Source of the DNA: Candidatus Cybelea palsarum
Lineage (GTDB): Bacteria > Vulcanimicrobiota > Vulcanimicrobiia > Vulcanimicrobiales > Vulcanimicrobiaceae
Assembly (NCBI GenBank): GCA_003166915.1
Contig: PMUK01000189.1
Span: 1-64,000, forward strand
Length of the DNA stretch: 64,000 bases
Direction of reading: 5' to 3'
Both the position numbers and the translations under genes were made by a program. Under the pieces are notes generated by a model, which saw nothing but the letters and a program-made list of their open reading frames with translations, had not been told where the DNA came from and searched no databases. Positions within the stretch are counted from its first letter, which is position 1, and each line of letters opens with the position of its first letter. Positions 4,553 through 5,969 of this stretch are shown piece after piece.

Positions 4553-4597
4553 TGTCATCCTGAGCGCAGTAATGTCATCCTGAGCGCAGTCGAAGGA
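4553..4597. repeat. Dispersed dyad repeat, two tandem partial copies
   Basis: The core TGTCATCCTGAGCGCAGT occurs twice, 20 nt apart, and the second copy continues as CGAAGGA. The same core recurs at 39691, 54595, 56931 and 58857 in either orientation. It lies in the leader of sucC, 33 nt before the ATG. No open reading frame or transposase accompanies it. Confidence 0.85.
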
Positions 4598-4642
4598 CGA
4601 AGGACTTGCTATCTCCGTCGCATTTCGTGAATGCCGCCCGCT

Positions 4643-4714
4643 GGGGCGTTTCGATGGTGTCGACGAGGGAGCTGATACCTCCCCTCGCTGCGGGTTCGAT
4701 TCCCGTGCGCTCCA
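4643..4714 (+). ncRNA. tRNA-like / tmRNA-like domain without an mRNA-like region
   Basis: Bases 4643-4649 (GGGGCGT) can pair with 4707-4713 (GCGCTCC) as a 7-bp acceptor stem that includes a G3-U70 wobble, the alanyl-tRNA synthetase identity element, followed by discriminator A at 4714. Bases 4690-4706 form a perfect T arm (GCGGG, loop TTCGATT, CCCGT). The 5' part contains TGGTGTCGACGAGG, similar to the conserved tmRNA 5' segment. The middle is only a hairpin (GGGAG, loop CTGATAC, CTCCC), which could be read as a GAT anticodon arm. A normal D arm and an encoded CCA are absent. It could be a reduced tmRNA, a tRNA-Ile relic or an attachment-site remnant; I cannot decide between them. Confidence 0.5.
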
Positions 4715-4789
4715 GCGCAAGATCGACGCGCGTTGCGCGATCGATGTGTACGTGGTAGTGTGAGGTAGAGGTATCAGCTCCCTATCGAC
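4659..4789. repeat. Long-range inverted repeat enclosing the T arm
   Basis: Bases 4666-4681 (AGGGAGCTGATACCTC) are the perfect reverse complement of 4768-4783. After a small internal loop the pairing resumes between 4659-4663 and 4785-4789, giving about 21 pairs. This pairing competes with the hairpin of the tRNA-like element, so the RNA could switch between two folds. Confidence 0.75.
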
Positions 4790-4793
4790 GTCG

Positions 4794-4822
4794 CAGGAGG
4801 CATCTAACGATGCCTCCTGTTT
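4794..4822 (+). terminator. Strong hairpin, possible rho-independent terminator
   Basis: An 11-bp perfect stem (CAGGAGGCATC / GATGCCTCCTG) with loop TAAC is followed on the plus strand by only TTT. It would end a plus-strand transcript from the structured element. It also sits directly after the stop of the minus-strand acyl-CoA dehydrogenase, where it has no T tract. Confidence 0.5.
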
Positions 4823-4823
4823 G

Positions 4824-5969
4824 CTATTCCAGACGCCCCAACAGCGAGCGCGCGATGATGATCTGCTGGATCTCCGACGTGCCTTCGTAGATCTCCGTGA
4901 TCTTTGCGTCGCGATAGTGACGCTCGACCGCGAACTCCGTCGTGTATCCGTATCCGCCGTGAATTTGCAGTGCTTCGCCGGCGTGTTTGCGTGCAGCCGT
5001 TGAAGCAAAGAGCTTTGCCTTGCTCGCGGGAATCGCAAAGGGCTCGCCCGCGTCGGCAAGGGCGGCGGCGCGATAGGTGAGCATCCGCGCCGCATCGAGA
5101 TCCATCGCCATCTGCGCAATTTTGAACGAGACGCCTTCGAACGCCCCAATGGGCTTTCCAAACGCGATGCGCTCCTTGGCGAACTTCACCGACTCGTCGA
5201 GGCACGCGGCGAGAATCCCGATCGCCTGCGCCGCAATGCCGATGCGACCGGCGGTTAATGCCGTCATCGCGTTGCCGAAACCGGCGCCCTCTTCACCGAG
5301 CAGCGCTTCCGGACCGACGCGCACGTCGTCGAAGGCCAAATCGCAGGTGTTGCTCGTGTGGATTCCCAGTTTTTCGGTCACGCGCTCGATCGTGACGCCG
5401 GGCAAGTTCGGCTCGAAAAGAAAGGCGCTGACACCGCGAGCGCCGGGGCCGCCGGTGCGAAACATTCCCATGATGACGCCGGCATAGCTGCCGGTGCTGC
5501 ACCACTGCTTTCGGCCGTTGAGGGTATAGCCGCCGCCGGAGGGCTTTGCAGTAGCGCGTAGGGCTACCGCGTCGGACCCGGCATCCGATTCGGTCAGCGC
5601 GAATCCAGCGAGAACGTCGCGGCTTGCCAAAAGGGGCAGCCAGCGCTCCTTCTGATCCTTCGTACCGAGTTTTAGAATCGCCGAACAGATCATCGAATGA
5701 ACCGAGACGGTCACCGCCGTTCCCGCATCGACGCGCGCGAGCTCTTCGATCGCGAGCGCGTATGAAAGATAATCCGCTTCCGCGCCGCCGTACTCTTCGG
5801 GCACGAGGATTCCCATGATGCCTGCGCCGGCCAGCTTGCCATAGAGTTCGCGCGGAAAAACGTGGTCGCGATCCCACTGCGCGACGAACGGCGCGATCTC
5901 GCGTTGCGCGATCTCCGCCGCCAGCGCGCCGATCTGCCGCTGATCCCCGCTTAGCTCAAACTGCGAAAT
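4824..5969 (-). CDS. Acyl-CoA dehydrogenase with probable ATT start
   Basis: An FAD-dependent short-chain acyl-CoA dehydrogenase of 381 residues, the family's usual size. It shows GILVPEEYGG, ALTESDAGSD, NGRKQWCSTGS and the C-terminal IYEGTSEIQ that carries the catalytic glutamate. The conserved N-terminus (FELSGDQRQIGALAAEIAQ) extends well upstream of the first ATG at 5816. The frame closes at a TAG shared with the thiolase end, and no ATG, GTG or TTG lies between. The best start is ATT at 5967-5969, preceded by GGAG at 9-nt spacing and 6 nt after the thiolase stop. It likely works with the adjacent thiolase in beta-oxidation or butyrate-type metabolism. Confidence 0.92.
   Translation of the reverse strand: MSQFELSGDQRQIGALAAEIAQREIAPFVAQWDRDHVFPRELYGKLAGAGIMGILVPEEYGGAEADYLSYALAIEELARVDAGTAVTVSVHSMICSAILKLGTKDQKERWLPLLASRDVLAGFALTESDAGSDAVALRATAKPSGGGYTLNGRKQWCSTGSYAGVIMGMFRTGGPGARGVSAFLFEPNLPGVTIERVTEKLGIHTSNTCDLAFDDVRVGPEALLGEEGAGFGNAMTALTAGRIGIAAQAIGILAACLDESVKFAKERIAFGKPIGAFEGVSFKIAQMAMDLDAARMLTYRAAALADAGEPFAIPASKAKLFASTAARKHAGEALQIHGGYGYTTEFAVERHYRDAKITEIYEGTSEIQQIIIARSLLGRLE

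Follow-up and report, generated by a model that had tools for sequence, protein, structure and literature searches.

A tRNA-like RNA with a predicted same-strand antisense partner in Candidatus Cybelea palsarum and related Eremiobacterota

In type VIII toxin-antitoxin systems both partners are RNAs, and the toxin RNAs mainly act on tRNAs or mRNAs (PMC12737573). CreTA, a CRISPR effector combined with a tRNA-sequestering mini-ORF, is a further case of an RNA toxin directed at tRNAs (PMC8501985). Neighbouring antisense RNAs with separate targets have been described for zorO-orzO and zorP-orzP, tandem and near-identical units whose sRNAs owe their specificity to a variable stretch at the 5' end (PMC3919570). 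To recognise its tRNA, alanyl-tRNA synthetase relies chiefly on the G3-U70 pair (PMC6451123).

The locus discussed here lies between sucC and an acyl-CoA dehydrogenase gene of Candidatus Cybelea palsarum, in a stretch of 64,000 nucleotides analysed as a whole (the window). It resembles the type VIII systems in its all-RNA partners, its compact two-gene arrangement and a predicted base-pairing antitoxin, but the putative toxin would be a folded tRNA mimic and the antisense would stem from a same-strand inverted partial duplicate. The RNA nature of both components is seen in the covariation of the tRNA-like domain, in the loss of the ATG of its D arm in divergent members and in the make-up of the antisense, a seed followed by a terminator; for the pairing of the antitoxin, cognate-specific complementarity was computed. 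With zorO-orzO and zorP-orzP it shares tandem units and an antisense specific for its own partner, whereas the target there is an mRNA encoding a small hydrophobic protein and here a structured non-coding RNA; in place of the CRISPR effector and mini-ORF of CreTA we find a tRNA mimic and an antisense. None of these compared systems (type VIII, zorO/orzO, CreTA) joins a tRNA-like target with an inverted-duplicate antisense. A search of the window against Rfam, at gathering and at low thresholds, gave nothing above cut-off, and a literature search found no published pairing of Eremiobacterota with a tRNA-like antisense system; judged by both, the RNA family is apparently undescribed.

Organisation of the locus

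Two RNA genes on the same strand were recognised inside 4640-4822, a tRNA-like domain and, following it, an antisense gene, with these parts:

4605-4631, + strand: promoter-like motif of the tRNA-like domain, CTTG ... CGTGAA, not sigma70-like; recognised by family conservation, single match in the window
4640-4642, + strand: GCU leader, pairing with AGC at 4714-4716 and extending the acceptor by 3 bp to 10 bp
4643-4714, + strand: tRNA-like domain, 72 nt; covariance models R1 and R2, 51-sequence alignment
4643-4649/4707-4713, + strand: acceptor stem, 7 bp, G3-U70 being G4645-U4711; direct reading
4651-4663, + strand: compact D arm, stem 4651-4654/4660-4663, loop UGGUG; covaries in relatives
4664-4687, + strand: anticodon-like arm, 7 bp, bulged, with a 9-nt loop at 4671-4679, GCTGATACC
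4666-4681, + strand: s1, the 5' side of the anticodon-like arm with its loop, target of the antisense seed; 16-bp perfect complement of 4768-4783
4690-4706, + strand: T arm; direct reading
4714, + strand: discriminator A73; direct reading
4715-4738, + strand: short hairpin GCGCAA/TTGCGC just 3' of the acceptor, its 3' strand being the -35 box; sequence reading
4733-4761, + strand: internal sigma70-type promoter of the antisense, TTGCGC at 4733-4738, 17-nt spacer, extended -10 TGgTAGTGT at 4753-4761
4768-4822, + strand: predicted antisense RNA of ~55 nt, with the s3 seed (4768-4783) at its predicted 5' end, a D-arm-pairing segment and the terminator
4793-4820, + strand: intrinsic terminator, 12-bp stem and 4-nt loop, then a T-rich tail; one found by the scan against 0.1 expected

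The 180 nt as a whole fold to -100.9 kcal/mol compared with -67.5 +/- 4.7 kcal/mol for shuffled sequences (z -7.1, 0 of 200 shuffles), while z is -2.9 for the 78-nt tRNA-like part, likewise against shuffles, and -4.05 for 4767-4822. A sequence-only reading of this DNA had proposed a structured tRNA- or tmRNA-like element with an alanine-type acceptor, and reading and covariation confirm it: the 7-bp acceptor, G3-U70, A73, the T arm and a TCGAC segment (4660-4664) are all found within 72 nt, the 5' end reads GGGGC, and the terminal hairpin it had noted is the terminator retrieved by the scan. Its statement that an mRNA domain is lacking is borne out as well, the element containing no tag reading frame. 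A normal D arm had been denied; the compact one listed above is present. Of the long-range stem that it described, the 16-bp complement stands, but a sigma70-type promoter lies between the two strands and the 3' strand coincides with the 5' end predicted for a second RNA. Judging from this arrangement, the stem would mainly represent a separate antisense RNA against the anticodon-like loop, stem and D arm, and it is this second promoter and antisense RNA, missed in the earlier reading, that is the core of the finding. The competition it had suspected between middle hairpin and distal strand is seen in the alignments, where both pairings covary. We propose that the antisense gene arose as an inverted partial duplication just downstream of the tRNA-like domain, on the same strand.

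In the surroundings of the locus, the repeat TGTCATCCTGAGCGCAGTCGAAGGACGAAGGA at window positions 4553-4603 also occurs beside another copy (L002, ~1310-1360) and is a dispersed repeat of these genomes, and a long reading frame at 840-2819 on the - strand encodes a putative squalene/hopene-type cyclase.

Family, distribution and covariation

Two further, diverged copies in the genome itself repeat this arrangement of parts. No gaps are needed to align the three 72-nt domains, and 8 of their 23 pairs already show double changes; a covariance model built from them (R1) gave about 70 strong matches in relatives. A second model (R2), built from 51 members, was used to search 149 genomes of the phylum, mostly metagenome assemblies, and at E <= 1e-5, the E-values of R1-R3 being rough, found at least one copy of the tRNA-like domain in 47 of the 149, every carrier belonging to family f1 or f3 of a single class. 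About 85 family members with the same order of parts were collected in total by the covariance models, and a short hairpin comparable to that at 4715-4738 was seen by eye after most of their tRNA-like domains. The observation is therefore confirmed as real and not a product of chance, because two diverged copies of the same architecture exist in the genome and about 80 in relatives; at the same time the module is not essential, since its presence is patchy (47 of 149 genomes).

Relatives were found only in one class of Candidatus Eremiobacterota, apart from a complete module on a phage contig (L350, IMGVR_UViG_3300047171_000080, 64.5 kb, with terminase genes), at 5185-5262 on the - strand of this tailed-phage sequence. 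Two other viral pattern matches, L352 and L353, are not family members. A pattern scan of GTDB returned 84 stretches, among which the convincing model matches all come from Eremiobacterota or bacterial MAGs; pattern matches in Streptomyces, Acidimicrobiia, Anaerolineales and others were rated as chance.

In the 51-sequence alignment, standard pairs occupy 95.3% of cells, and 205 cells hold double changes compared with 54 +/- 7 after shuffling; these changes affect 22 of the 26 pairs, and every slid register fails. Conservation of the pairing in relatives, on which the sequence-only reading had staked its interpretation, was thus examined, and the pairing is kept. G3-U70 is a G-U pair in 50 of the 51 aligned domains. 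The leader pairs 1-77, 2-76 and 3-75 (alignment A4) change in a compensatory manner, the middle one being CG in 36, GC in 5 and UA in 5 sequences. The "anticodon" differs among members (GAT, GTC, GAC, GAG).

Units are found between housekeeping genes, often facing convergent genes, and some stand in tandem, two or three to an array. No constant protein partner was found across the loci, recurrent neighbours being only syntenic housekeeping clusters; the site occupied in the window, between sucC and the acyl-CoA dehydrogenase gene, is common to several genera. It was also observed that many group-A units lie directly 3' of a radical-SAM gene, probably rlmN (L050:6893-8185 and syntenic loci), and that intervening array units at these loci seem to repeat sequence resembling the 3' end of that rlmN-like gene.

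Promoters, cognate pairing and asymmetric loss

Upstream of the tRNA-like domain, CTTG and CGTGA are both present, 21-22 nt apart and at a fixed distance to the domain, in 54 of the 71 members with 60 nt of upstream sequence, and G[TGC]GA occurs at -20 to -11 in 89% of members compared with 15% of shuffled sequences. The sigma70 extended -10 TGnTAnnnT was found there in none of 71 members. Based on the conserved motif, a separate promoter which is not of sigma70 type is predicted for the tRNA-like RNA. In the phage copy, a sigma70-type promoter (TTGACC-17-TGgTACGAT) stands at the position of this motif, which supports a predicted start of the tRNA-like RNA just 5' of the acceptor strand.

The antisense gene is preceded by signals of another kind. 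An extended -10 TGnTAnnnT is located 5' of s3 in 66 of 70 members, compared with 3.4% of shuffled linkers, and TTG is found 17-18 nt upstream of this -10 in 62 of 70; the commonest start of s3 is 6-7 nt past the -10, at the expected transcription start. A distant relative (L095) carries the boxes TTGCAT-17-TATAAT. By consensus the promoter of the window copy is weak, and a strict-consensus scan does not call it; the internal promoter therefore rests on family conservation.

Complementarity between s1 and s3 is above that of shuffled sequence in nearly all members; at positions 23-38, standard pairs make up 96-100% with many pair types and compensatory changes in relatives. The cognate duplex in the window amounts to -46.1 kcal/mol, and over the family the mean is -47.6 kcal/mol for cognate and -29.4 kcal/mol for non-cognate duplexes. 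The three copies of the genome are mutually specific (cognate -44 to -49, non-cognate -24 to -34 kcal/mol), and within tandem arrays, too, cognate duplexes are far stronger than non-cognate ones. Since seeds at one orthologous locus (sucC/acyl-CoA dehydrogenase) differ between members while complementarity is kept, the conserved partner of the antisense would appear to be the tRNA-like domain rather than a fixed mRNA.

The two genes are not lost alike. With a sequence model (R3) for antisense genes of group A, 51 matches were obtained in the family, and beside 24 of these no tRNA-like domain was found at E <= 1e-5, the counts referring to sequences and not to independent events. In about 15 of the 24, which were read, the domain was deleted, reduced to its 3' acceptor strand or halved, with promoter, seed, D-arm complement and terminator kept; orphan antisense genes of this kind are L280, L286, L287, L289, L292, L294, L295, L297, L300 and L301. 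Conversely, the antisense complement is present for all tRNA-like domains without gross damage (70, and 14 more), no intact domain lacking a cognate antisense was found among those checked, and in the single domain without complement (L303, the same as L093) the acceptor strand is destroyed. Such asymmetry is expected if an unopposed tRNA-like RNA is costly; if the RNA were a sponge, something similar would be predicted, but a freely changing seed would not.

Possible function and rival explanations

Whether the element could be a functional tRNA-Ile or a tmRNA relic deserves attention, as ARAGORN calls tRNA-Ile(GAT) at 4642-4716 and GGGGC...TCGAC together with G3-U70 is reminiscent of tmRNA; G3-U70, A73, the canonical T arm and the GGGGC 5' end are features common to tmRNA and tRNA-Ala. 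We give this explanation hardly any credence. The call comes from ARAGORN alone: the Rfam tRNA model (RF00005), with 40 matches in the genome, has none at 4643-4714, and the domain lacks CCA, its discriminator being paired within a blunt, covarying 10-bp acceptor, which also speaks against the minimal alanine-accepting RNA suggested earlier. The anticodon-like arm has 7 bp and a bulge, no pseudoknots were seen, the "anticodon" varies, and the genome has tRNA-Ala genes and an ordinary tRNA-Ile(GAT). As for a relic of ssrA, the genome has its own full tmRNA elsewhere, the element has no Rfam match at gathering level and is not among the RF00023 matches in the genome, it has no tag-coding domain, and the family is conserved and covarying. 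Other known classes were tried and set aside. The Y RNA YrlA resembles the locus as a T-arm tRNA mimic with a long helix, but its match stays sub-threshold (23.7 bits, gathering 69), the long helix here joins two RNAs with separate predicted promoters, and no TROVE (Ro) protein was found in this genome or in the element-carrying relatives among those searched. A few members of the phylum (L225, L226 and others) do have TROVE (Ro-like) proteins, and those genomes are without the tRNA-like element. A type I toxin-antitoxin was rejected, the sole conserved start codon being part of the D arm (GATGGTG) and missing in the divergent L096, L097 and L104. An att remnant, also suggested earlier, does not agree with the many unrelated intergenic sites or with the neighbourhood, which at the window site consists of sucC and the acyl-CoA dehydrogenase gene, with no integrase alongside and no recurrent neighbour family beyond syntenic housekeeping clusters. 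The complete phage module, the patchy distribution and the tandem arrays could nevertheless point to a selfish element, in which case the pair would descend from a phage or plasmid device for antisense copy control or immunity and have stayed behind in chromosomes; this we hold to be very improbable, given conserved chromosomal sites common to several genera, no replication or integrase gene noted nearby, and no family match among the phage and plasmid records searched.

The reading we prefer, to which we would give an even chance, is a two-gene, all-RNA antagonist module in which a tRNA-like RNA is held off by its private antisense, similar to type VIII toxin-antitoxin systems. A compact tRNA-like RNA would be transcribed from its own promoter of non-sigma70 type, possibly under stress control, and an antisense of ~55 nt from a sigma70-type promoter by means of the housekeeping sigma factor. 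Pairing in trans, the 5' end of the antisense would first contact the exposed 9-nt anticodon-like loop and then invade the 5' side of the arm, whose local partner it would displace, before reaching the D arm, so that the tRNA elbow would be undone and the tRNA-like fold dismantled. The tRNA-like RNA would be the active and probably harmful member, most likely a non-chargeable decoy for alanyl-tRNA synthetase or tRNA-processing enzymes, which is the simplest guess because G3-U70, recognised by alanyl-tRNA synthetase, and A73 are kept unchanged in a blunt 10-bp acceptor and a free CCA end is lacking. In a different reading, the sigma70-driven antisense acts as a regulatory sRNA on other targets and is titrated by the tRNA-like RNA, which would be an inducible sponge of high stability. 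The two promoter classes and the persistence of antisense genes without the tRNA-like domain would suit such a relationship, but the seeds vary freely at an orthologous locus and between copies of one genome, with only the complementarity to their own domain kept, and a sponge could do without invariance of G3-U70, a T loop of canonical form and covariation in the D arm; we consider this reading rather unlikely. There is no clear terminator between the two genes, and a single ~180-nt transcript with cis pairing is therefore possible, in which the tRNA-like domain would fold first and be undone by the distal strand, as a timer or switch, with the internal -10/-35 secondary. The full-length fold favours the long-range stem, and the covariation of both local and distal pairings fits as well; the -35 and extended -10 are, however, properly spaced and the complement begins at the predicted start in most members, and antisense and promoter survive alone in many genomes, so that we regard a single self-regulating RNA as improbable.

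Within the antagonist reading, a further step can be taken tentatively, with a confidence short of even: the module may represent a novel kind of toxin-antitoxin or defence system made only of RNA, in which a tRNA-Ala mimic blocks alanyl-tRNA synthetase or tRNA maturation and is countered by an inverted-duplicate antisense, with freely diversifying codes, on Eremiobacterota chromosomes and a phage. In practical terms, annotation is misled by these loci, because ARAGORN-type tools give tRNA names (tRNA-Ile, -Val, -Asp or -Leu) to some of the copies. Judged by Rfam and the literature examined, a tRNA mimic permanently coupled to a dedicated antisense is undescribed, and it comes from an uncultured soil phylum with hardly any RNA biology. 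Should the tRNA-like RNA prove inhibitory, RNA-only toxin-antitoxin systems would come to include a folded tRNA decoy, and the family would offer about 85 specific RNA-RNA recognition pairs as a natural library, one of them phage-borne.
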